Shown here: positions 6,514-45,491 of the stretch, piece after piece
How positions within the stretch are numbered: the first letter of the stretch is position 1
Layout of the letters: the number at the start of each line of letters is the position of its first letter
DNA from: Chloroflexi bacterium GWB2_49_20
GTDB lineage: Bacteria; Chloroflexota; Anaerolineae; Anaerolineales; Villigracilaceae
Assembly (NCBI GenBank): GCA_001796335.1
Contig: MGMF01000001.1
Span: forward strand, 248,001 to 312,000
DNA length: 64,000 bases
Reading direction: 5' to 3'
Notes under the pieces: model-generated
The model's database searches: none
The model's input: only the letters and a program-made list of their open reading frames with translations
What the model was told of the DNA's origin: nothing
Translations under genes and position numbers: made by a program

Positions 6514-9500
6514 TCAATGTCTTCTTCTTTTTTTCTTACTGGAGGTCTCAGCAACCCGGGTCTCGGCCGGCGCCTCGTTGCTGGTTTCAGCTTGCAGGGA
6601 ACTCTGGGCACGAGGTGTGTAAAGGAAAATGCGGCTGATGACAGCAGAACGGATCTCTCCCATCAGATTTTGGAACAATTGCGAGGCTTGTCCTTTATAT
6701 TGTACCAGCGGATCTCTTTGTGCATAGGCTTCCAGGCCAATCGAGATGCGCAAGGCTTCAACGCGTGTCAGGTAATCCACCCACAATTCGGTAATTGCGC
6801 CCAGCAGCACCTGGCGATAGATCTGGGTTTGCATACGCTTACCAAGTTCAACCACAACGGCCTGGTGCTCTTCATTGTTTAGTTCAGGTAACGGCAGGTT
6901 AATGCTTTCTACTGACAGACTGCTGCCATCCATTAGATGGGCAGTTGCGGCAATTTGCGGCAGGTCCGCCAGCCTGGGCATGTTCATGTTCTGTGTCAGG
7001 CGCACCCATTCGCTCTCACCCCAGGCGGTGCGGATGACATCCCTACCTGCTTCCAGATGTGTCAGGACATTATCCATGACTTCATCCGGTTCAAGTTCTT
7101 CCAACAATTTGGCAGCCAGGTAGAGATAACTGAAACGTAAAATCACCTGCTGCACCTGGCGATGGGTTTTGTTATCAAAAGCAGTCCGACGACCCTGGGA
7201 TAGGGTGTTCAACAGACGGATTCTTTCGCTATCTTCCAGGGTCTCCTGGCGTTGCAGAATGACATCCAACTCACGTACCAACTGCCCGTTCTTGCCCAGC
7301 AGGTTGTCCTTGCGCTTTTCCAGCGCCCCATGTAAAGCCTGCATGACCTGATCCACAATTTCTTCCCAATCCTGTCCCTGCAGTCCGGACTTATCCAGGT
7401 CCAACGGATCTCCCAGACGGTGTTCGATGGCACCAAGCAAGCGCGTGATGGTCACACCGGTTAGTAAATTCTCCACTTGAGCTTGGATCGGTTCCTGTAA
7501 TTCATGCGGATCTTCGGTCAGGATGCGCATCTGTTCGGAAGTTAAGCTCACAGGCAGACGTGCCAACCCGGAGACCTCATCCAAAACTTCCTGGGCACGT
7601 CGTGGTGTTTCGTTTTCGTTGTCACTTATGTTATCGAAAAACGTATCCAGCGCATCCGTGCGTTCTCTTATCTGTTTTTCCAGGCTTTCTCCGGTATTAT
7701 GTGCCAGAACCTGAGTAGCATGCAGAATATGTTCCTGCTCAAGTTCAATGGCAAGCTGTGTCATTTCCAGAACGGCAGTGCGCAAGTCGAGCCCGGAGGT
7801 TTTAAGTCGATTCAGCAATAAACGGTAAGTGAAGGTTGGGAAAATACTACCATCCGGCATTGGCAGCAAAGGCTGGATCTGTTCCAGCCACGCCAGTAAT
7901 CGCCAAGGGCCTTCCTCGTCATCCAACGCAGCCGGTACGCGCTGTTGTATCTCACCGGTCAGCAATTCATCCACATCGTCAGTCAGGTCTTCCTTGTCAA
8001 AGACCCGGTCACGCTGGGAATAGATGCGTTTGCGTTGGGAATTAAGCACATCATCATATTCCAGAAGATGCTTACGAACATCAAAGTTTGCGCCTTCCAC
8101 CCGGTGCTGGGACTGCTCGATGATGCCAGTCACCATGCGGTGTTCAAGTGGATATGCATCGTCGATGCGCAGGCGTTCCATCATATTCTTCACCTGCTCG
8201 CCTCCGAACATGCGCATCAGGTCATCTTCCAAAGAGAGGTAAAAGCGAGAAGATCCCGGGTCACCCTGGCGGGCAGCACGACCACGCAACTGGTTATCAA
8301 TCCTACGCGATTCATGCCGCTCGGAACCGATCACATGCAAGCCACCCAGGGCGCGTACTTTTTCCATGTCATCAAAATATTGCAGGAAAAATTTGATTTC
8401 GCTTTCATAAATTCCAAAGGAAGTCGCGTCCAGTTTAAGTAAAGCCTGGCGGCGCTCTTCCAAAGACATTTCGTAAGGCTCTGCATAACCCGCCCGGCGC
8501 AGCACACGGTGTACAGTAATGAGAACTTCCTCGGCAATTTCGCCACCCAGCTTGATGTCGACACCACGCCCGGCCATATTGGTGGCAATGGTTACCGCTC
8601 CAAAGGCGCCTGCGCCCGCGATCACCTGGCTTTCCTCGGTATGTTTACGGGCATTCAAGACCTGGTGGGCAACACCTCCCTGTGTGACCGCTTTCAGGCG
8701 GGGTTCATCTTCAGGAGACAGATCCAGGATCTCAATCAACAGGCTGATATTAGCAGGGTCTTCGGGATTAAGGGTAAGACCCAGGTCGCGGCTCATCGGG
8801 CGCAGATCATTGGGTTGGATTTTTTCAAGTGGTTGGTTAAAATCTTCCAGTTCAGTGATCAAACGCCCATCTTCCTGGCGGTCGTTGGCTTTCAACCAGC
8901 TATGGCGTATCAGGAGCACCTGCAGCAAGCGCCGCAACGGTTCAGCCCGAAGCCGGTTGGACAAGCGGTCTGAGCCTTCCACCGATGTTGTTCCCACCAA
9001 CAAGGGTCGCCCCTTGATATGGAAAGTTATGATCTCGCGCACCAACGAGCGAACCTTGGCTTCAGCGGTACGGTAGATCACATCGGGGTAATCCTTGCGC
9101 TTCCAGAAAACTGGCGAGGAGGTGGGATCATCCAGGCGGGCATAATAGGTGTACTTGTAATTAAATTCATCCTGTGCCTGCACTTCCATCAGGGCGGCAT
9201 TGTGATGCGCCACCTGGTATTCCAGGTTGGTGGGAATCGGCAGTACTTCCAGATCATAGATCTTGGAAAATTCCTCTGCCTCTGTCAGGGCAGTACCGGT
9301 CATACCGGCCAGTTTTTCATACATTCGGAAATAATTTTGCAGGGTGATGGTGGCGTAAGTGATATTTTCAGGTTCCACCTTGACGCCTTCCTTGGCTTCG
9401 ACAGCCTGGTGCAGACCATCAGACCAACGCCGGCCGGGCATCAGGCGTCCGGTGAACTCATCCACAATCACCACCTTGCCGCCCTGCACCAGGTAGTCCT

Positions 9501-10554
9501 TATTGCGGTGGAACAGGAACTGGGCGCGTAAAGCCTGTTCAAGGTAACCGATCAGGCGCGCTTGTTCGGGAGTCACATCTTCGGGGCGTTCAGGATCGCG
9601 TAGTGGTTGTCCCAGTAACTGCTCGATATGGACTGTCCCGACTTCGGTCATGGAGATGCTGCGATCCTTCTCGCTGACCTCGTAATCTTCCGGTTTCAGT
9701 TGACGCACCAGTTGCGCCATGCGTGCGTACCATTCCACATCCCCTGAGGCTGGCCCGGAAATGATAAGGGGCGTGCGGGCTTCATCGATCAGAACATTAT
9801 CGACTTCATCCACAATGGCATAGTGGTGGCCGCGCTGGACACGGTCTCCCTTGCTCATGGTCATGTTATCGCGCAGGTAGTCGAAACCAAACTCGCTGTT
9901 GGTTCCATAGACCACATCAGCCGCATAAGCCAGCTTGCGATCCACCATGCGCAGCTTGTCCTGGTCTTCCCGTGTTGACTCACGTTCGGGGTCGTATAAA
10001 AAGGCCTTTTTGCCATTCTCCGTGGCGGCTGCCATTTGTAAAATCCCCACGCTCAGCCCCAGGAAATGATAGATCTCAGCCATCCAGCGCGCATCGCGGC
10101 GTGCCAGGTAGTCATTGACAGTGATCAGGTGCACCCCTTTACCTGTCAGTGCATTCAGATATACCGGTAAAGTGGCCACCAGAGTCTTGCCTTCACCGGT
10201 ACGCATCTCAGCGATCTGGCCGCGGTGTAACACCGTACCACCAATCAACTGGACATCGTAATGGCGCTGACCGAGGGTGCGTTTGCTGGCTTCACGTACG
10301 GTGGCAAAGGCTTCCGGAAGGATCTCATCCAGGGCCTCCTGCCCGGCCTGTGATAATTCGTCTTCATCCTGGATGCCTTCCAGCGCTGTGGCGATACGTT
10401 CCTTGAATAATGTGGTCTTTTGGCGCAGCTCGTCATCGCTGAGGGTTTCGTATTCCGCCTCCAATGCATTGACCAGCTCAACCACCTCACCCAGTTTGTC
10501 AATCTCTTTCTTATTGGGGTCGCCCCCGAAAATGCTGACGAATTTTCTAAGCAT
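6514..10554 (-). CDS. secA: Preprotein translocase ATPase SecA, oversized
   Basis: Motor ATPase of Sec-dependent export, acting at the membrane with SecYEG. Diagnostic motifs are intact: MRTGEGKT (Walker A), DEVDNVLIDEARTPLI, GMTGTA, ATNMAGRGVDIKLGG, GSERHESRRIDNQLRGRAAR and LEYDDVLNSQRK. At 1346 residues it is about 450 longer than usual. Two insertions account for this: roughly 80-90 residues between TTSVEGSDRLS (about 521) and HQVLNARKH (about 631), and about 260 extra acidic and helical residues after about 850 in the scaffold/wing part. The usual C-terminal zinc-binding CxC tail is absent; the protein ends in a basic KKKRRRH tail. No frameshift is seen. Confidence 0.95.
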   Translation of the reverse strand: MLRKFVSIFGGDPNKKEIDKLGEVVELVNALEAEYETLSDDELRQKTTLFKERIATALEGIQDEDELSQAGQEALDEILPEAFATVREASKRTLGQRHYDVQLIGGTVLHRGQIAEMRTGEGKTLVATLPVYLNALTGKGVHLITVNDYLARRDARWMAEIYHFLGLSVGILQMAAATENGKKAFLYDPERESTREDQDKLRMVDRKLAYAADVVYGTNSEFGFDYLRDNMTMSKGDRVQRGHHYAIVDEVDNVLIDEARTPLIISGPASGDVEWYARMAQLVRQLKPEDYEVSEKDRSISMTEVGTVHIEQLLGQPLRDPERPEDVTPEQARLIGYLEQALRAQFLFHRNKDYLVQGGKVVIVDEFTGRLMPGRRWSDGLHQAVEAKEGVKVEPENITYATITLQNYFRMYEKLAGMTGTALTEAEEFSKIYDLEVLPIPTNLEYQVAHHNAALMEVQAQDEFNYKYTYYARLDDPTSSPVFWKRKDYPDVIYRTAEAKVRSLVREIITFHIKGRPLLVGTTSVEGSDRLSNRLRAEPLRRLLQVLLIRHSWLKANDRQEDGRLITELEDFNQPLEKIQPNDLRPMSRDLGLTLNPEDPANISLLIEILDLSPEDEPRLKAVTQGGVAHQVLNARKHTEESQVIAGAGAFGAVTIATNMAGRGVDIKLGGEIAEEVLITVHRVLRRAGYAEPYEMSLEERRQALLKLDATSFGIYESEIKFFLQYFDDMEKVRALGGLHVIGSERHESRRIDNQLRGRAARQGDPGSSRFYLSLEDDLMRMFGGEQVKNMMERLRIDDAYPLEHRMVTGIIEQSQHRVEGANFDVRKHLLEYDDVLNSQRKRIYSQRDRVFDKEDLTDDVDELLTGEIQQRVPAALDDEEGPWRLLAWLEQIQPLLPMPDGSIFPTFTYRLLLNRLKTSGLDLRTAVLEMTQLAIELEQEHILHATQVLAHNTGESLEKQIRERTDALDTFFDNISDNENETPRRAQEVLDEVSGLARLPVSLTSEQMRILTEDPHELQEPIQAQVENLLTGVTITRLLGAIEHRLGDPLDLDKSGLQGQDWEEIVDQVMQALHGALEKRKDNLLGKNGQLVRELDVILQRQETLEDSERIRLLNTLSQGRRTAFDNKTHRQVQQVILRFSYLYLAAKLLEELEPDEVMDNVLTHLEAGRDVIRTAWGESEWVRLTQNMNMPRLADLPQIAATAHLMDGSSLSVESINLPLPELNNEEHQAVVVELGKRMQTQIYRQVLLGAITELWVDYLTRVEALRISIGLEAYAQRDPLVQYKGQASQLFQNLMGEIRSAVISRIFLYTPRAQSSLQAETSNEAPAETRVAETSSKKKRRRH

Positions 10555-10639
10555 AGATACCCTTTCGGAGTGCGATTATAGCATAGCGGTGCTGCCTGAC
10601 ATCTTAATCTTTCGTTAGCATTTCAATAGCCTTCAATAC

Positions 10640-11389
10640 CTACCACTCCAGGCCGCATTTCTTGAGTTGGTCCAGCAATTCCTGCGGGTCTTTTAGCCAC
10701 TGCCCCCATTTGCGTGAAATATGTTCTGTCCAAGAGTAATTCTCATATGTAAAAGTTTCTTCACGCTCCCCCTGGAGTTTGATCCTGGCTTTTTGTTTCT
10801 CATAATAACCCTGTGCCAGGTAACCTTCATCCATGGCTCGCATGGCTTCAGTCAACATCTCATCCGTGATCTTGTATTCGTCTTCAAATAAGGTAAAGGC
10901 CAGCGGATAGCGCGGGCGGGGCGGAAATTCCTCTGCCGGGTAACCCATGGTCAGCTGCACCAATGGAAAAACTCCATCAGGTAGTTTATATTCCTTTTTA
11001 ATGCGCTCCGCCCGGTAGGGGGTCGACCCCAGGAAGCAGCTCCCCAAACCCAGGCTCTCCCCGGCAGTGACCATGTTCTGAGCCATCAAGGAGGCATCCT
11101 GGATGCCGAAAAACAGCATTCCCAGGTCATTGGACACACGTTCCCAGCCGCGCCGACCCATGAACAGCTCCAACTTGTAAATATCGACACAGATGGTGAA
11201 CAACAAGGGAGCCCTAAAGGGGAGTTTTGCTTTGCGCGAGAGCAGCACACTGTAGAGTTGGGAGGCAAAGGGCGCTTGTTGTGCAGCGCGTATAAGCGAT
11301 TCGATGACCTCATCACCGGGTTTTTCCTGCGTATAGCGTCTCACCGATTTGTGATTGAGCATGGTTTCCAGGACCGGGTTCGTTTCCAT
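10640..11389 (-). CDS. Nitroreductase-family flavoprotein
   Basis: FMN-dependent nitroreductase-fold oxidoreductase of about 249 residues, similar to the NfrA/FRase I type that reduces nitro compounds or flavins with NAD(P)H. Family features are the N-terminal HKSVRRYT phosphate-binding segment, ESLIRAAQQAP, the central AQNMVTAGESLGLGSCFLG helix and LVQLTMGYPAEE. An in-frame GTG at 11410 would add seven residues, but the ATG at 11389 has GGAG about 9 nt upstream and the family starts right before the HxSVRxY element. Single-gene unit upstream of secA on the same strand; its physiological substrate is unknown. Confidence 0.85.
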   Translation of the reverse strand: METNPVLETMLNHKSVRRYTQEKPGDEVIESLIRAAQQAPFASQLYSVLLSRKAKLPFRAPLLFTICVDIYKLELFMGRRGWERVSNDLGMLFFGIQDASLMAQNMVTAGESLGLGSCFLGSTPYRAERIKKEYKLPDGVFPLVQLTMGYPAEEFPPRPRYPLAFTLFEDEYKITDEMLTEAMRAMDEGYLAQGYYEKQKARIKLQGEREETFTYENYSWTEHISRKWGQWLKDPQELLDQLKKCGLEW

Positions 11390-35882: not shown

Positions 35883-35955
35883 GGGCCCGTAGCTCAGCGG
35901 TTAGAGCAGGCGACTCATAATCGCTTGGTCGCTGGTTCGAATCCAGCCGGGCCCA
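35883..35955 (+). tRNA. tRNA-Ile2 (anticodon CAT, lysidine type)
   Basis: A 73-nt tRNA. Acceptor arms GGGCCCG and CGGGCCC pair, with discriminator A. The anticodon arm GGCGA-CTCATAA-TCGCT gives CAT. The stretch from the anticodon stem to the T-loop matches, as far as I recall, the E. coli AUA-reading ileX tRNA (GGCGACTCATAATCGCTTGG), rather than elongator or initiator Met tRNA. CAT would be modified to lysidine by TilS. The 3' part serves as attB for the adjacent integrative element, and its last bases come from the element side. Confidence 0.93.
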
Positions 35956-35956
35956 C
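35922..35956 (+). repeat. attL: 35-bp direct repeat in tRNA-Ile2
   Basis: From CGCTTGGTCGCTGG in the anticodon stem to the end of the tRNA plus one base. It is identical to 45457-45491. It restores a full tRNA at the left junction. Confidence 0.93.
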
Positions 35957-36067: not shown

Positions 36068-36988
36068 ATGGAAAATCCAAAAGACACTCAACAAATAATA
36101 CAAAACCCTCTTAAGTTGATTCTAAGAAATTTGCGGTTGCTTGAACTTGTGTTAATTGCAAAAAGAAATAAGCCATTCTTTGATGAATTTGTTTCTTTTA
36201 TCATTAGCAAAGGTTATCAATCTGTTTATGAGTTTATTATTGAACCAGATAACCAGAAAGCTATTAGTACAATTTCTGATTATTTTTATTATGAACCTAG
36301 TGAATTATTATTTGATGGTTTACTCCGCCCTTATCCACCTAATAAGGCTAAGTGGTTTTTTATTTCATGGCTATTTAGAGACGCAGCCACTCAAAGACTT
36401 CAACCACTTCTCTCTAATGTTCCAGGAAAAAGTGATATAGAAAGAAAGACATTTTTATTAAATGAATTAAGAATAGATGTAGGACCACTCTTCCCAGACC
36501 CACACAGTTGGGAATGGCCAGCTTTTAATGAAATAATGATAACAAGATTAGAGGGAAGTAGAAGGGCTTTAAAAGGAACCCGGATAGAAGAACTAGTTCG
36601 AAGTGTATTAAGAGATCTAATAAATACAAATCACTTATCTTTAATAATTAGTAACGCCCAAGTAAAAGTTAACGATGAGACATATGATATCGAAGTAAAA
36701 GGTAAATCAGGCACATTACTTATTCCTGTAAAAACTAGGGAAACAATGGGTGGAGGTCACGCACTTTTATTTACTAGAGACATTCATAAATCTATAAATT
36801 CTGCAATCCAAATTGGATACCATTGTATACCTGTTGTAATTGCCGAATCTTGGTCAGGAAACTTGGATACTTTGAAATCAGAAAAATATATATATATTCA
36901 AGCCAATCCGAATCAACTTGAAACAATTGAACCAATGTTACGAGAAAAGTTGTTTGATATTATTTCAATACTCAAAGTTATTGAATAA
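36068..36988 (+). CDS. Putative type II restriction endonuclease
   Basis: A 306-residue protein directly beside a DNA methyltransferase. The segment ETYDIEVKGKSGTLLIPVKT (about residues 202-221) followed by RETMGGGHALLFTRDI has the Asp...xVK pattern of PD-(D/E)XK restriction enzymes. The IPVKTRET-GGGH block is a signature I associate with certain type II endonucleases. It is convergent with the methylase (stops adjacent at 36988/36989). There is no Shine-Dalgarno before the ATG. Recognition site unknown. Confidence 0.72.
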   Translation: MENPKDTQQIIQNPLKLILRNLRLLELVLIAKRNKPFFDEFVSFIISKGYQSVYEFIIEPDNQKAISTISDYFYYEPSELLFDGLLRPYPPNKAKWFFISWLFRDAATQRLQPLLSNVPGKSDIERKTFLLNELRIDVGPLFPDPHSWEWPAFNEIMITRLEGSRRALKGTRIEELVRSVLRDLINTNHLSLIISNAQVKVNDETYDIEVKGKSGTLLIPVKTRETMGGGHALLFTRDIHKSINSAIQIGYHCIPVVIAESWSGNLDTLKSEKYIYIQANPNQLETIEPMLREKLFDIISILKVIE

Positions 36989-37882
36989 TTACAATAAAGA
37001 ACCCTGAATTAATCTTTTTTTTGCCATTTCACAATATTCCGGGTTGCTATCTATTCCTATGTAATAGCGCCCTAATTTATTAGCAACTACTGCAGTTGTT
37101 CCACTTCCAATAAAAGGATCCAATACAATCCCGTTTTCTGGACAACCTGCTAATATACAAATCTCCACTAATTTTTCTGGGAAAACCGCAAAATGAGAAT
37201 CTCTAGATTTTGATAGAGGAATCTCCCATACTGTTCGCCTATTTCTTCCTAATGGATTAAATATTTTATCCCAATTACCACTGTGTAAATTAGTTACACC
37301 TGCAAACTTTCCGTTCTCAGGCGTTCCATTTGCTTTACCTAAATGATTCCGTCCACCTTTCATTCTGCTTTTATCAGAAAAAGTAATATAAGGTTCACGA
37401 ACAGCATCAGCATTATAAAAATATTCTTTACTCTTTACAAATAAGAATATATATTCGTGATCAATTGTCGGTCTGTTTTTTACTGGTGAGGGCATGGCAT
37501 TTGGTTTATGCCAAATAATGTCAGATCTTAATATCCATTTCGAATTTATTTGTGCAATTGCTACCCTCCAAGGCATCCCAAGTAATTCATTATCAATATA
37601 TTTATCACCCAGGTTTAACCAAAATGTGCCATCTTGTTTAAGAATTCTTTTGCATTCAACAAAAACTTCCGTAAGATTATTTATATATTCTTCTACATTG
37701 GCCTCATTACCAATTTGAACAGCTGTACTGTAATCCCGTTGTTTGTAGTAAGGGGGACTTGTAATAATGCAATTCACTGAACTGCTAGGAATTTCTTTTA
37801 AAACATCAACTGCATTTCCAAACTTAATAGTATTAATGATATCCCTATTAAAGATTTCATTAATGTTGTTCTCGTCTCTCAT
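36989..37882 (-). CDS. Site-specific DNA methyltransferase (beta class, N4-C or N6-A)
   Basis: A 297-residue SAM-dependent methylase that would protect DNA from the adjacent endonuclease. The catalytic motif TSPPYYKQRDYS is near the N-terminus (about 41-52) and SAM motif I (DPFIGSGTTAVVANKLGRYY) near the C-terminus, so the order is that of beta-class enzymes. TSPPY is most often seen in m4C methylases but does not exclude m6A. GAGG precedes the ATG at 37882. Confidence 0.93.
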   Translation of the reverse strand: MRDENNINEIFNRDIINTIKFGNAVDVLKEIPSSSVNCIITSPPYYKQRDYSTAVQIGNEANVEEYINNLTEVFVECKRILKQDGTFWLNLGDKYIDNELLGMPWRVAIAQINSKWILRSDIIWHKPNAMPSPVKNRPTIDHEYIFLFVKSKEYFYNADAVREPYITFSDKSRMKGGRNHLGKANGTPENGKFAGVTNLHSGNWDKIFNPLGRNRRTVWEIPLSKSRDSHFAVFPEKLVEICILAGCPENGIVLDPFIGSGTTAVVANKLGRYYIGIDSNPEYCEMAKKRLIQGSLL

Positions 37883-37941: not shown

Positions 37942-38994
37942 TTATAATTTTTGTAATAACTGCTCTATTAAAGTGACCAACACTTCATTATTCCGAATTA
38001 CTTTCATATCCTCTTTTTCACCAATATTGGTTATTTGTTCTCTAACATCTATTCTTGAAAGTATTCCATAAACCCCGTCAGTAATACTAATATTTGAATG
38101 CATTAGATTTTGACTAACGGCTTTTAACGCCAAAATATCTTTTGAGTTCTTCAAAGCATAAACCGCATGACCGTGTCTAAATTTATGTGGGGAGTGATAA
38201 GTTAAATCAACTTTTTTAAGCCATTGTCTCAAATCCTTACTCGGTCTTTGGTAACGATTTTCACCTACTTTAAGGATTTGTGGATCTAATTCCCCTGTAT
38301 CAGGGGATGCAGGAGCAAACCAAAATCCATTATTCGGCAATACATTTCGAATTTCTATATCCCAATCTCTAACAACATCTAATAATTCGGGAATATTTAA
38401 TAAATAAGTGGTGGCATGTTTTTTAAATTTTGTATGAACCCCTAACTTTGGCCATTGTTTTATAGTTAGGTTTTCAATATCTACAGCCATTATCGGCAAA
38501 GTGACAAATGCTCCCACTCTTATCCCTGACAAAAACCAAAATACAGCAGCAGCCCTAATACGCCTATCTCTATAAGTAAATACTGATGCTTTAGCAATTG
38601 CCATTATTTCTTCTAAGGTTACCGCTTCATGTTCTCTATACTCAATAGTCATTCTTGGAGTTTTAAGAGTATCCAACCATGCTTGTGAAACAACCCCAAA
38701 ACCTCTCCGATGAGTTGTTAGCCACTTATAAAAATTATGAGCCGCTCTTATTACTTTTCTAATGTAAATAGGAGATAGGATTTTTGAATTTTTATCACGA
38801 TTTGCAGTTAACATATAATCGGGAAAAACTGGACGGATAGAAGAAGATTTTTCAAATGGTTCATTACCAGCCCATTCCAGCAAATGAGAGAGCATAGTTT
38901 CTTCTAATCTTAAAGAATTCTTAGATAGAAGATCTACTTCACGCCGATAATGCAAATATGCTCGTATGAATTTCCAATTTTCCCGATTAATCAT
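37942..38994 (-). CDS. Tyrosine recombinase (integrase)
   Basis: About 350 residues. The catalytic set is visible in the C-terminal half: SGIRVGAFVTLP (Arg I), HKFRHG (HxxR) and LMHSNISITDGVYG with the second His/Asn position and the nucleophile Tyr. The N-terminal part is a SAM-like core-binding domain. The ATG at 38994 overlaps the upstream gene's stop as ATGA, implying translational coupling; a GTG three codons earlier is possible. It should catalyse integration at the tRNA-Ile2 repeat and, with a helper, excision. Confidence 0.93.
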   Translation of the reverse strand: MINRENWKFIRAYLHYRREVDLLSKNSLRLEETMLSHLLEWAGNEPFEKSSSIRPVFPDYMLTANRDKNSKILSPIYIRKVIRAAHNFYKWLTTHRRGFGVVSQAWLDTLKTPRMTIEYREHEAVTLEEIMAIAKASVFTYRDRRIRAAAVFWFLSGIRVGAFVTLPIMAVDIENLTIKQWPKLGVHTKFKKHATTYLLNIPELLDVVRDWDIEIRNVLPNNGFWFAPASPDTGELDPQILKVGENRYQRPSKDLRQWLKKVDLTYHSPHKFRHGHAVYALKNSKDILALKAVSQNLMHSNISITDGVYGILSRIDVREQITNIGEKEDMKVIRNNEVLVTLIEQLLQKL

Positions 38995-39401
38995 TTTCCC
39001 CACTTTTTATTTTCAATGATCCTTGGAAGCTTACGTCCACAATTTGGGCATTTACAAATCCAGTATATAAAACCGCCTTTTTTAATCAAATGGGGGTTAT
39101 TCATAATAACTGGTTTCTTACAAGTCAAGCAAAAAGCCTCATTTTTCCCTAATTCTATTCTTGGATAAAAAAATTCATACCATTCTTGAAATTCTTTTCC
39201 ATTTATCCATAGACGTCGTTTGTTATCTCTTCTATGTGGACACCCTTGATGCATATAAACTCGATACACCTGTCTACGATTAAAACCAACCTCAATTGCT
39301 AATTCACCTGGTGTATATTCCATATCCAGCAGCTTAATTAAACGCATTCGCTGATAACCTTTTAGACGACCTTTTAAAATAATCTCGGTTTGGTCCGTCA
39401 T
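38991..39401 (-). CDS. HTH / zinc-ribbon DNA-binding protein, candidate excisionase
   Basis: About 136 residues. The N-terminal region contains a helix-turn-helix (YTPGELAIEVGFNRRQVYRV) and a basic winged segment (RRDNKRRLWINGKEFQEWYE), like an excisionase. The C-terminus has a zinc ribbon CLTCKK...CKCPNC. The ATG at 39401 has GAGGA upstream and lies 10 nt after the rep stop. It is translationally coupled to the integrase, so a role as recombination directionality factor is likely. Function is inferred from position and domains. Confidence 0.68.
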   Translation of the reverse strand: MTDQTEIILKGRLKGYQRMRLIKLLDMEYTPGELAIEVGFNRRQVYRVYMHQGCPHRRDNKRRLWINGKEFQEWYEFFYPRIELGKNEAFCLTCKKPVIMNNPHLIKKGGFIYWICKCPNCGRKLPRIIENKKWGK

Positions 39402-39411
39402 ATAATCCTCT

Positions 39412-40311
39412 TCATTTACCCATATTTTCAAGAAGATTGTCATATTTTGCCCCTCTTCGACTACGACCACGTTTTATTAGCTTATCAATTGCTTCTGGTG
39501 GAAGAATATCGATTGCTACGCTTAAGGCAGGCATAACTTGTCTATCCAACCAATTAACCATCCTTGTGACTGTTAACTCTTTGGCATCCCCAATTGTTGC
39601 CCATGCTCTTGCTTCACCGGAAATAAATTCTTGCCACCAATCAGTATAAAAATCAATGTAATCTCGCAAATGGCCAATACTTATTGAAAACCATTTTGAA
39701 ACATCTTCGGCTAATAATAAATCCTGTGCGATTATTTGAGCTCGAAAATCTCTTGTTTCAATTTCCAATCTTGTATAACCCCGTTTGTTGTAAATCCTGA
39801 TTCTACGATCTGCTTCTCTCAATCCAAACTCAACTGTATAAGTTCCGATTTCTCCATTATCTCGCTTACCCAAAGGTGATTTATGTACTACTAAATTTTC
39901 ACGTTTCCCTAATGTTCTGATATTGTTTTCAATTATTTCTTGTTCAGCTTGTTCAGGAGTGAAACCAAGATTATCAAATGCGAAATCTAAACGAGTAAAG
40001 TTATATGCATCTTTATAATTGCTTTCCAACAAAACCCCTAATGCATGAAAATAATCCCACGAAATTAATTCGCACGCTTGACCAGGTATTTCGTAATGGA
40101 AATATTCTCTATCTTCTTGAACAGGATTAAGATAAATTTTAAATTCCATTAAGGAATGCCATATTTCTTTAAATCCTCTTCCACCATGCCCCATTTCAAC
40201 CATTTCCCCAAACCTATCTTTTAATAGAATGTCATAAATATTAAATGCTTGATCTCTAGGAGCATGTATTGTGAAGGCTAACCAATGAATTCCAAATGTT
40301 ACTTTTTCCAT
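39412..40311 (-). CDS. Rep_trans-like rolling-circle replication initiator
   Basis: A 299-residue protein. Motifs typical of the replication-initiation factor family (Rep_trans, PF02486) are FTRLDFAFDN (about 125-135), RIRIYNKRGYTRLEIETRDF (about 185-204) and WLAFTIHA near the start. The family nicks one DNA strand and initiates rolling-circle replication of plasmids, phages and some ICEs. The exact active-site Tyr is not certain. It is in the same operon as the integrase. GGGAG lies upstream of the ATG. Confidence 0.78.
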   Translation of the reverse strand: MEKVTFGIHWLAFTIHAPRDQAFNIYDILLKDRFGEMVEMGHGGRGFKEIWHSLMEFKIYLNPVQEDREYFHYEIPGQACELISWDYFHALGVLLESNYKDAYNFTRLDFAFDNLGFTPEQAEQEIIENNIRTLGKRENLVVHKSPLGKRDNGEIGTYTVEFGLREADRRIRIYNKRGYTRLEIETRDFRAQIIAQDLLLAEDVSKWFSISIGHLRDYIDFYTDWWQEFISGEARAWATIGDAKELTVTRMVNWLDRQVMPALSVAIDILPPEAIDKLIKRGRSRRGAKYDNLLENMGK

Positions 40312-40353
40312 TTTTTTAAACTCCCACCCCCTATCAGTATGGGGGGGGTTATC

Positions 40354-40405
40354 GCTTTCACAAGCTGGCAGTCCTCCTTACGTGCGGGCTGGCAGTTGTG
40401 AAAGC
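40354..40405. repeat. Inverted and direct repeats before rep
   Basis: A perfect 10-bp inverted repeat (GCTTTCACAA at 40354-40363, TTGTGAAAGC at 40396-40405) encloses two direct copies of GCTGGCAGT (40364-40372 and 40388-40396). It overlaps the 3' end of the small gene at 40378 and lies 40-90 nt upstream of rep. It could be a Rep binding or nick site, or a regulatory hairpin. Confidence 0.65.
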
Positions 40406-40614
40406 TGAATTTCTGATACTTCGCTCTGATCTTTATCTTCAATACTCTTTGTAAGGCTGATATAGCCTGTCATTAATGCCAAACGCATGAATTCAGCCTT
40501 TTTGTATCCTGATCTCTTTTGAAAATCCATTAAAGAATATTTGACAGGTAAAGGTAAAGTAACGTTTACCCTTCCGTACAATCCTTTTTTAGTTTTGATT
40601 ATTTTTTCAACCAT
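40378..40614 (-). CDS. Small ribbon-helix-helix-like protein
   Basis: A 78-residue protein with a basic N-terminus containing a beta-strand-like GRVNVTLPLPVKYSLMDFQK and a helical segment GYKKAEFMRLALMTGYISL. This is the CopG/Arc type arrangement of plasmid copy-control proteins. AAGGAAGG lies upstream of the ATG. It is the first gene of the rep operon and may repress it. Confidence 0.6.
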   Translation of the reverse strand: MVEKIIKTKKGLYGRVNVTLPLPVKYSLMDFQKRSGYKKAEFMRLALMTGYISLTKSIEDKDQSEVSEIQLSQLPART

Positions 40615-40643
40615 ATTTCCTTCCTTAATCTAATTTGCACCCG

Positions 40644-40789
40644 CCGCCCGTCCTAAGTGCAGCCTACCAGGCTGACACTCACAGTCAAGGGCTTTTGGCT
40701 GTTGCCGCTTCGCTCAAGCCCTTGACAGTGAGCCTCGGTCAGCCTGGTAAAGATGGCTAAGGACGGACGGCTAAGGCTATAACGGGCGG
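40644..40789. repeat. 146-nt GC-rich imperfect cruciform (candidate replication origin or oriT)
   Basis: The left arm (40644-40694) and right arm (40716-40789) pair through several perfect blocks: AAGGGCTT core with TCAAGGGCTT/AAGCCCTTGA, CTCAC/GTGAG, TACCAGGCTGAC/GTCAGCCTGGTA, GTCCTTA-type and CCGCCCGT/ACGGGCGG. The loop is 21 nt. It is sharply more GC-rich than the flanking element DNA and sits between the divergent rep operon and the XRE gene. Such structures serve as double- or single-strand origins in rolling-circle elements. Confidence 0.7.
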
Positions 40790-40850: not shown

Positions 40851-40898
40851 CAATTATTCTAATAAGGAATGTTATTATATTCTAAATTAGAATAATTG
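40851..40898. promoter_or_regulatory. Dyad operator upstream of the XRE gene
   Basis: A perfect 13-bp inverted repeat, CAATTATTCTAAT (40851-40863) and ATTAGAATAATTG (40886-40898), with a third partly overlapping ATTCTAA-A-TTAGAAT palindrome at 40879-40893. It lies 24 nt before the XRE start and is a probable binding site for that repressor. Confidence 0.7.
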
Positions 40899-40921
40899 TC
40901 AATATTTCTACAGGTTTTCTT

Positions 40922-41317
40922 ATGATTGAAAAATTCCTTGATCTTCTGAGAGACGAAGGTCCATTTCTCCCCAATAGATATACAATTGCATTAGGAAAAC
41001 GAATTCGTGAAGCCAGGCTTGAATCGAATATGAGTCAAGCAAAACTTGCTGAAAAAGCATATTTTAAGCAATCGTCAATTTCCAAAATCGAAGCTGGAAC
41101 TAGATCGGTAGCAGCAGAAGAAATCTTATATTTGAGCTATGCACTAGATAAACCTATTATTTATTTTTTCCCGAAAGAATTTGTTTATGAATTGAGCGAA
41201 AACGAATTATCGTTACTTGAAAAGGAATTACTTATCCAAGTACGTCATTTAAGTAAAGAGGATATGCGAAGATTAATAGCCCAAGCTAGGGCTTTAGTAG
41301 ATTTATCAGACCGATGA
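40922..41317 (+). CDS. XRE-family helix-turn-helix regulator
   Basis: A 131-residue protein. Residues about 23-75 form an HTH_3 domain: IREARLESNMSQAKLAEKAY, then QSSISKIEAGTR. The rest contains helical residues that may form a dimer or ligand domain. It lies 46 nt upstream of the OLD gene on the same strand and behind a dyad operator, so it probably represses itself and the OLD gene until a trigger releases it. The ATG at 40922 lacks a good ribosome-binding site. Confidence 0.85.
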   Translation: MIEKFLDLLRDEGPFLPNRYTIALGKRIREARLESNMSQAKLAEKAYFKQSSISKIEAGTRSVAAEEILYLSYALDKPIIYFFPKEFVYELSENELSLLEKELLIQVRHLSKEDMRRLIAQARALVDLSDR

Positions 41318-41363: not shown

Positions 41364-43337
41364 ATGAAACTCACATCTGCTGAAATCACTGATTTCCAAT
41401 CTATTCGCCATTCAAATCCTTTTGAAATTGGGGAAATTACTTGTTTGGTAGGAAAAAATGAAGCAGGGAAAACAGCTTTACTAAGGGCTCTTTATAGGCT
41501 CAACCCTATCATTCCTGAAGAAGGCAATTTTGATGTTACAGATGATTACCCTCGAGCGGATGTAGAGGATTATCAACAAGATGTAGAATCCGGAGATCGT
41601 GAACCAGCGAAAGTAATTGAAGCAACTTTCACATTATCAGATGAAGAAATATGCGGCATAGAAACTGAATTTGGAAAGGGGATTTTATCAGATAGCTTTC
41701 TTACCCTGAGTAAAGGTTATGATAATAAGCTATTTGTTAGTTTATCAACCAATCCTAAAAAAGCTATAAAATCAATTATTGATCAAGCTCAAATACCTAC
41801 AGAGTTAGCTAAAAATTTAATTACATCCTCCTCATTGGATAATCTCGTCAAACTAGCTGACGAAAATAATAGCTCTGAGTATTCGGAACATATTAATCGT
41901 CTTAAATCAATAATACAAAACATTAACGCTAAGAATGGTTTAATTATTTATATCTATGATAAATACCTCGCCGGTAGTCTTCCTAAGTTTCTTTTGTTTG
42001 AAGAATTTTACTTAATGAAAGGATGCGAAAATATAGAAGTTTTAAAGACAAGAGTTACACAAAATAAGCTAGAAAAATCAGATTATCCGTTGTTAGGATT
42101 GATTGAGTTAGCTAGATTAAATTTAGATGAATTGCTGAATCATAAAAGGACAGAGGAACTTGTAAATAAACTTGAAGGGGCAAGTAACCATCTTAGCAAA
42201 AAAGTGCTAAAGTATTGGTCTCAAAACAAACATATAAATATAAAATTCGATGTTCGTCCCGCCCGTCCTGGTGACCCTGAAGGAATGAGACAAGGAACTA
42301 ACATTTGGGGTCGTGTTCATGATTCAAAGAGAGAAGTATCTACTCTACTTGGTACTCGTTCCCGTGGATTTGTGTGGTTCTTTTCCTTTCTTGCTTGGTT
42401 TGATCAACAACAAAAGAATAATCAACCCTTAATTTTATTACTTGACGAACCAGGCCTTTTCTTACATGGTCGTGCTCAGGCGGACCTACTTGATTTTATG
42501 GAGAAAGAGTTAAAACCTAATCATCAAGTTATATATACAACCCACTCACCTTTCATGGTTGACCCTTCAAAACTTGACCGTGTCTTAATCGTTCAAGATA
42601 GAAGCATGGATGAAGATAAAACTTCCCCAAATGAAGACGGTACAAAAGTAATTAATAACATTGATGATGCTACTGAGGATAGCTTATTTCCATTGCAAGG
42701 AGCTCTTGGATACGATATTTGTCAATCTCTGTTTATAGGGCCGAATTGCCTTATTGTCGAAGGTGTATCAGATCTTCTCTACTTACAATCAATATCATCC
42801 CTACTTGAATCAAAAAACATGGAAAAAATTGACGATAGATGGACAATTACACCAGTCGGCGGAGCTGATAAAATACCCACATTTGTAGCCTTGCTTGGAG
42901 CTCAAAAGAAAATAAAAATTGTCACCCTTATCGACATTCAGAATAAAGATAAACAGAAAATTGATAATTTATTTGAGAAAAAGCTTCTCAAAAAGCAAAA
43001 TGTTTTAACATTCGCTGATTTTGTTAATTCAAAAGAAGCCGATATCGAAGATATGTTTGGAGAAAATCTTTATCTAAAATTAGTAAACGAAGAGTATTCA
43101 AGAGAATTATCTACTCCAATACTAGCCAAAAATCTAAATTCAAAATTACCAAGAATAATTATGAGATTAGATAATTATTTTAGCAAAAAACCATTAACCG
43201 ATAATCATAAATTCAATCACTATCGCCCAGCTAGATATTTTGCTGAAAATATAACGAAATTAGCAGACGATATTCCTACAGATATTATTAATAAATTTGA
43301 GGAAGTATTCAAAACTATAAATAGATTACTCAAATGA
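41364..43337 (+). CDS. OLD-family ATPase with Toprim nuclease domain
   Basis: A 657-residue protein. The N-terminal ABC-type ATPase has Walker A GKNEAGKTALLRALYRLNP (about 30-48) and Walker B/D-loop LLLDEPGLFLH with THSPFMVD (H-loop). The C-terminal Toprim domain has LIVEGVSDLLYL (catalytic Glu) and VTLIDIQNKDK; the usual DxD is DIQ here. OLD nucleases such as GajA act in anti-phage defence. There is no UvrD-like GajB partner, so it is not Gabija. AAGGAAAC lies upstream of the ATG. Confidence 0.88.
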   Translation: MKLTSAEITDFQSIRHSNPFEIGEITCLVGKNEAGKTALLRALYRLNPIIPEEGNFDVTDDYPRADVEDYQQDVESGDREPAKVIEATFTLSDEEICGIETEFGKGILSDSFLTLSKGYDNKLFVSLSTNPKKAIKSIIDQAQIPTELAKNLITSSSLDNLVKLADENNSSEYSEHINRLKSIIQNINAKNGLIIYIYDKYLAGSLPKFLLFEEFYLMKGCENIEVLKTRVTQNKLEKSDYPLLGLIELARLNLDELLNHKRTEELVNKLEGASNHLSKKVLKYWSQNKHINIKFDVRPARPGDPEGMRQGTNIWGRVHDSKREVSTLLGTRSRGFVWFFSFLAWFDQQQKNNQPLILLLDEPGLFLHGRAQADLLDFMEKELKPNHQVIYTTHSPFMVDPSKLDRVLIVQDRSMDEDKTSPNEDGTKVINNIDDATEDSLFPLQGALGYDICQSLFIGPNCLIVEGVSDLLYLQSISSLLESKNMEKIDDRWTITPVGGADKIPTFVALLGAQKKIKIVTLIDIQNKDKQKIDNLFEKKLLKKQNVLTFADFVNSKEADIEDMFGENLYLKLVNEEYSRELSTPILAKNLNSKLPRIIMRLDNYFSKKPLTDNHKFNHYRPARYFAENITKLADDIPTDIINKFEEVFKTINRLLK

Positions 43338-45429: not shown

Positions 45430-45463
45430 TAGCCTAACTGGAGTTGAGCCTGAATACGCTTGG
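45430..45463 (+). repeat. Att-like repeat, copy 3 (leads into attR)
   Basis: A 34-nt copy TAGCCTAACTGGAGTTGAGC...GAATACGCTTGG. Its last seven bases CGCTTGG are the first bases of the tRNA-derived right repeat, so here the repeat is continuous with a real attachment site. Confidence 0.85.
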
Positions 45464-45491
45464 TCGCTGGTTCGAATCCAGCCGGGCCCAC
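45457..45491 (+). repeat. attR: 35-bp direct repeat
   Basis: Identical to 35922-35956 in tRNA-Ile2. It lacks the 5' half of the tRNA, so it is not a tRNA gene. It marks the right end of the element. Confidence 0.93.

Follow-up and report, generated by a model that had tools for sequence, protein, structure and literature searches.

Introduction

The single-strand origins (sso) ssoA and ssoU of Gram-positive rolling-circle (RCR) plasmids are primed by RNA polymerase, work on one strand, lie mostly 5' of the double-strand origin (dso) and are common to plasmids with different rep families (PMC5703833, PMC4595007). A similar use of folded single-stranded DNA (ssDNA) has been described for Frpo/ssi of F-type plasmids, in which a long hairpin restores the -35 and -10 boxes that RNA polymerase uses (PMC9849209, PMC11541004). 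Rep_trans proteins are also found as relaxases in the IME_oriT of streptococci, small integrative elements without transfer machinery of their own (PMC7563843). A keyword search of the open-licence literature found no described sso in Chloroflexota among its top-ranked papers.

The window analysed here is a stretch of 64,000 nucleotides from Chloroflexi bacterium GWB2_49_20, in which a first-pass annotation, made from the sequence alone, had marked a large inverted repeat between a rep operon and a divergent XRE gene.

Gene content of the integrative element

The hairpin sits within an element of 9.5 kb, at both ends of which the same 35 bp from the tRNA-Met 3' end are present as an exact repeat (Table 1), and tRNA repeats bound the related elements as well. 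Two further genes of unassigned family are also inside the element, and neither conjugation genes nor capsid or export genes were recognised in it. The Rep family profile matched the solved Rep 4CIJ at 3e-16, and the residues R107, D109, T159, G163, Y174, R181 and E183 were invariant among the aligned relatives. The catalytic motifs of Rep_trans proteins are RxD, T/SxY/ExG, YxK and RxE (PMC5714925), and both profile and motifs place the initiator in this family, with the E of motif III (YxKxxE) off the stated spacing. Searches with Rep by tblastn gave no match in phages and one distant Exiguobacterium plasmid among the plasmids; in viral contigs no Rep was confirmed by alignment and the loop pattern was absent.

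The name HTH/zinc-ribbon-like was given by eye because no Pfam family matches the product of that gene. The 78-aa protein had no Pfam or PDB match; it is RHH-like by eye, its predicted model was of low confidence, and the fold search gave no significant match. The consensus promoter between the XRE gene and the hairpin is oriented to transcribe through the hairpin, and the AT-rich palindrome over it is likely the XRE operator.

Table 1. Features of the element and of the large hairpin region (window coordinates).
Feature	Position	Strand	Evidence
attL: 3' end of tRNA-Met	35922..35956	+	35-bp exact repeat
Type II restriction enzyme (cargo)	36068..36988	+	PADLOC REase_II 1.6e-35
Type II DNA methyltransferase (cargo)	36989..37882	-	Pfam PF01555; PADLOC MTase_II
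Tyrosine integrase	37942..39003	-	Pfam PF00589
HTH/zinc-ribbon-like protein, conserved in chassis	38991..39470	-	relatives; named by eye
Rep_trans replication initiator	39412..40311	-	Pfam PF02486 1.6e-15; phrog_453
Small GC-rich hairpin, loop ACTGATA, candidate Rep nick site (dso, possibly also oriT)	40323..40348	-	relatives; MOBT/Rep_trans nic description
Second inverted repeat, GCTTTCACAA ... TTGTGAAAGC, adjoining nick hairpin; may be bound by Rep	40354..40405	-	z -4.5, region with both hairpins
Small protein (78 aa), RHH-like by eye, first gene of rep operon	40378..40614	-	relatives in L004, L078, L080, L081, L083
Large hairpin, candidate sso	40643..40771	- (rep-sense, folding strand)	fold z, covariance model, covariation
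-10-like TAGGCT	40661..40666	-	16 nt past -35-like box
-35-like TTGACT, 3' arm	40683..40688	-	TTGAYN in 15 of 15 tabulated copies
Terminal-loop motif GAGCGAAGCGGC, includes GCGAAGC mini-hairpin sequence	40704..40715	-	
Conserved 5'-arm motif TGTCAAGG, partner of -35-like box	40720..40727	-	
5'-arm bulge ATCTTT opposite -11/-10 of putative ssDNA promoter	40749..40754	-	
AT-rich palindrome over sigma-70-type promoter, likely XRE operator	40851..40898		85% complementary; role inferred
Consensus sigma-70-type promoter TTGACA-N17-TATAAT, toward rep	40874..40902	-	12 of 12 consensus positions
XRE-family repressor, divergent from rep	40922..41317	+	Pfam PF01381 6.5e-10
OLD-like ATPase/TOPRIM protein (cargo, probable defence)	41364..43337	+	Pfam and PADLOC searches
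attR: copy of tRNA-Met 3' end	45457..45491	+	35-bp exact repeat

Structure of the large hairpin

The inverted repeat is located where the first-pass annotation had placed it (146 nt, 40644-40789), with a right limit that has to be moved inwards: pairing stops about 18 bases earlier, and the paired part comprises 129 nt. Its 21-nt loop was recovered as described, enclosed by arms of 17 nt that are 94% complementary (40678-40694/40716-40732), and a second arm pair of 12 nt is perfect (40665-40676/40738-40749). The GC content of 0.57-0.59 amid AT-rich flanks also agrees with the earlier description. When both strands were folded as DNA, values of -48.1 kcal/mol (z -10.3) for the minus, rep-sense strand and -41.5 kcal/mol (z -7.1) for the plus strand were obtained, and no shuffled sequence was as low as the native one on either strand. 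The about 23 extra bases that had been reported in the right arm around ACGGACGGC are not an insertion, since ACGGACGGC is paired to the left foot, GCCGCCCGT. The bases left unpaired in the minus-strand fold form small bulges, two on one side (5 and 4 nt) and one of 5 nt on the opposite side near the foot. The loop, GAGCGAAGCGG in most copies, keeps GCGAAGC, and d(GCGAAGC) is a very stable DNA mini-hairpin (PMC4686876). A search of Rfam returned nothing relevant.

In the host genome of 3.37 Mb (28 contigs) the hairpin occurs in full once. A second, broken and partial copy (L010, at G000:C14:334031) matches at 74% over 89 nt and adjoins a different XRE gene close to the end of a contig. A dispersed repeat, an outcome that the first-pass annotation had named as fatal to its proposal, is ruled out by these two copies.

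Distribution, covariation and strand

We searched 396 genomes of the class and 400 of the order for homologues of rep and compared their surroundings, the copies coming from draft genomes in which several elements are decayed. The first-pass annotation had suggested looking for the hairpin beside homologous rep genes, and it was present at some of them: homologous large hairpins were found 5' of rep at L004, L048, L049, L056 and L050, a shorter hairpin with the same TGTCAAG/CTTGACA stem at L012, and one hairpin copy in the remnant L018. At other rep loci unrelated strong hairpins occupy the slot, and the large hairpin is missing beside many Rep_trans homologues. A covariance model was then built from seven cores, found beside or by similarity to the rep locus of the window, and it recovered 16 copies in 15 of the 400 genomes of the order; seven of these matches are therefore its own members and nine are new. 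The phylum sample added only two weak partial matches, both in G037, a member of another family of the class (L088 and L089); these have TGTCAAGG ... CCTTGACA stems, and an integrase-like gene lies near the L089 copy.

In 12 aligned copies 88.4% of the cells are paired and 20 of the 47 pairs show two-sided change. Out of 500 shuffled alignments, which leave the relatedness of the copies uncorrected, none was as good on four of five measures and one was on the fifth; when the stem partners were slid, the pairing fell to 28-42%. The strong secondary structure in ssDNA that is expected of an sso is thus found here, both in fold z and in covariation. The eight intact copies contain 16 G-T cells and 4 A-C cells, which favours the rep-sense strand as the folding strand. 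The model scores agree, with 79.9 bits on the minus strand and 16 bits on the plus strand for the window, and 73-94 bits on the rep-sense strand versus at most 23 on the other for the seven model members.

Besides the six copies accompanied by Rep_trans (the window, L004, L048, L049, L056 and L050), four copies (L078, L080, L081 and L083) lie in elements that keep the XRE gene, the hairpin, the small protein, the HTH protein and the integrase, with the initiator swapped for an unrelated HUH protein of the REP_ORF2-G2P type (PF23343, E 5e-13 to 3e-22, with the HxH motif). The hairpin is therefore probably recognised by a host factor and not by the initiator of the element, and its association with both families corresponds to an sso shared among elements with different initiators. 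A search for the L078 hairpin in plasmids and phages found none.

A separate candidate nick hairpin

Nearly all rep homologues have a small GC-rich hairpin 20-260 nt 5' of rep, such as CCCCCCATACTGATAGGGGGTGG, with loops ACTGATA, ACTAATA, ACTAGCA, ACTGTTA, ACTGACA or CTAATGACA. The nic site of MOBT/Rep_trans proteins has been described as a GC-rich hairpin whose loop contains CT'AA (PMC9371924). The exact tetramer CTAA occurs in L047, L055, L013 and L014, CTGA in the window, and CTAG and CTGT in other relatives. From these sequences the small hairpin, rather than the large one, is probably the Rep nick site. Since CTAA is on the rep-sense strand in those four loci, this strand is presumably the one that is nicked and displaced. 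The large hairpin lies 5' of the candidate nick hairpin on the same strand, so that it would be the last part exposed as ssDNA, as with most plasmid ssos; the sso is 5' of the dso in most RCR plasmids (PMC4595007). Its position thus fits the usual, though not universal, placement of an sso on the displaced strand, given the nick and strand proposed.

Promoter-like boxes in the stem

In the 3' arm, all 15 copies have TTGA and 11 of them retain TAGGCT; the spacing between both boxes is 16 nt in 13 copies, 15 in L018 and 17 in L080, and most columns between them vary and covary. Most copies show TTGAYN-N16-TAGGCT, a spacing that would suit the 16-18 nt expected of an Frpo-like ssDNA promoter, but the -10-like box keeps only TAxxxT of TATAAT; the -35-like box of the window matches at five of six positions. 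A bulge of 5-6 nt in the 5' arm is opposite -11/-10 in most intact copies, and it shrinks to a single base in the folds predicted for L048 and L049. The orientation of the boxes would direct transcription toward the hairpin foot, the template being the 5' arm followed by the adjoining ssDNA.

Interpretation and alternatives

The structure, conservation, covariation, position, strand, spacing and bulge described above are best accounted for if the large hairpin is the sso of an integrative rolling-circle element, which we consider probable; its priming by RNA polymerase is a narrower proposal, held with little better than even confidence. Of the roles put forward in the first-pass annotation, the sso is therefore the best fit, and the dso and oriT find no support because nearly every homologous rep has the separate small hairpin with a CT'RN loop on its 5' side. 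For the steps of Rep nicking, ssDNA intermediate, polymerase recognition and primer synthesis we infer the following scheme. The element would excise and Rep would nick the rep-sense strand in the small hairpin, after which replication would displace the nicked strand. On the displaced strand the large hairpin, which lies 5' of the nick, would become single-stranded and fold, rebuilding a promoter with the 3' arm as non-template strand (TTGACT and TAGGCT) and the 5' arm as template, kept partly melted by the bulge opposite -11/-10. Host RNA polymerase could then make a short RNA off the hairpin foot toward XRE, to be extended by DNA polymerase into the second strand. The same hairpin would be expected with two initiator families because the host reads it. 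Among the points that count against the sso are that the remnants L077 and L082 retain an intact hairpin without rep or a recognisable nick hairpin, and that in the window the rep transcript also includes the hairpin in its 5' leader, where a role in RNA would select the same strand.

The latter point leads to one of the two main rivals of an RNA polymerase-primed sso, a leader RNA structure that would control how the first rep-operon gene is transcribed or translated. The consensus promoter reads through the hairpin, that gene begins about 28 nt past the hairpin foot, and the mRNA strand is the better-folding one. However, this reading is weakened because L048, L049 and L056 have the hairpin with no RHH-like gene after it and no adjoining XRE gene was seen there; no terminator-like site was found, and this reading would explain neither the spacing of the -35/-10-like boxes nor the mini-hairpin loop in DNA nor the association with two RCR initiator families. 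We regard it as unlikely. The other main rival, priming of the sso by a primase or primosome, is a sub-case of the sso and overlaps with it in probability. Second-strand origins of the primase type exist (PMC4595007), and the loop motif GAGCGAAGCGG and the 5'-arm motif TGTCAAGG could be protein-binding sites, but the constant TTGAYN/TAGGCT spacing and the -11/-10 bulge would not be accounted for, which makes this mode of priming doubtful.

The closeness to rep and the strong fold could also suit a large hairpin that is itself the nick site, dso or oriT, with its loop cut by Rep. This is highly improbable, given the separate small hairpin with its fit to the MOBT nic description, the occurrence of the large one beside HUH initiators of an unrelated family and its absence at many Rep_trans homologues. 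Least probable of all is a recombination or packaging hairpin (a folded attP or an inovirus-like signal): the remnants L010, L018 and L079 do break at or near the hairpin, but the tRNA repeats, away from the hairpin, are the att sites, and the window element has no recognised capsid or export genes.

Returning to the sso, a wider proposal is offered tentatively and with low probability: a host-read sso family would be common to integrative elements with two unrelated initiators, and its bulged ssDNA promoter would also transcribe the divergent XRE gene while the element is still single-stranded, thereby turning on repression and the cargo that lies behind it before the second strand is made.

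Comparison with described systems

The hairpin resembles ssoA and ssoU in its length (about 130-160 nt), strong fold, apparent use of one strand, likely position upstream of the nick and occurrence with different initiator families, and it differs in its host group, Chloroflexota, and in the CS-6 motif of ssoA, TAGCGA/T, which is not kept and appears as TAGCGA only in L050. With Frpo/ssi it would share a long ssDNA hairpin with -35/-10-like boxes, a proposed likeness of structure; in contrast to Frpo, it lies upstream of the likely nick and would be the last to become single-stranded, so that its main role is unlikely to lie in expressing leading-region genes. ICEBs1 also combines a single-strand origin with an integrative element and a Rep_trans-related initiator, but its sso1 is downstream of oriT, which counts against an sso at the position found here, and it carries conjugation genes of its own. 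The IME_oriT are likewise integrative elements of small size that encode a Rep_trans protein but lack transfer machinery of their own, whereas the Chloroflexota elements lie in tRNA genes, carry defence cargo and would only hypothetically be mobilised by a helper.

If the proposal is right, an sso type from Chloroflexota would be added to those described. The copies yield a model, supported by covariation, for a putative ssDNA promoter and its pre-melted site, and the hairpin could serve as a marker for small defence-carrying integrative elements with differing initiators.

Remnants and other related elements

Three loci with the hairpin (L077, L079 and L082) are without rep, and two more, L084 and L085, are in a degraded state. 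L082 (about 8255-10679) is an element of about 2.4 kb between 34-bp tRNA-Met repeats, with XRE, the hairpin and a protein that is TIR-like by eye; having neither rep nor integrase, it is possibly a non-autonomous derivative. In L018, L077, L079 and L010, from which rep has been lost, the breaks are at or just past the 3' foot or the loop of the hairpin, as if the hairpin were a deletion hot spot. The Rep_trans element L013 (5358-10949) encodes a P-loop-like protein as well as membrane and repeat-rich secreted proteins and looks inovirus-like by eye; its identification as an inovirus through a Zot-like protein had no support from Pfam, PHROGs or PADLOC. In L018, a tandem array of ACCGGTAATACCGGCAA-type repeats (about 6690-6780), which may serve as operators or iterons, is located between XRE and the hairpin.
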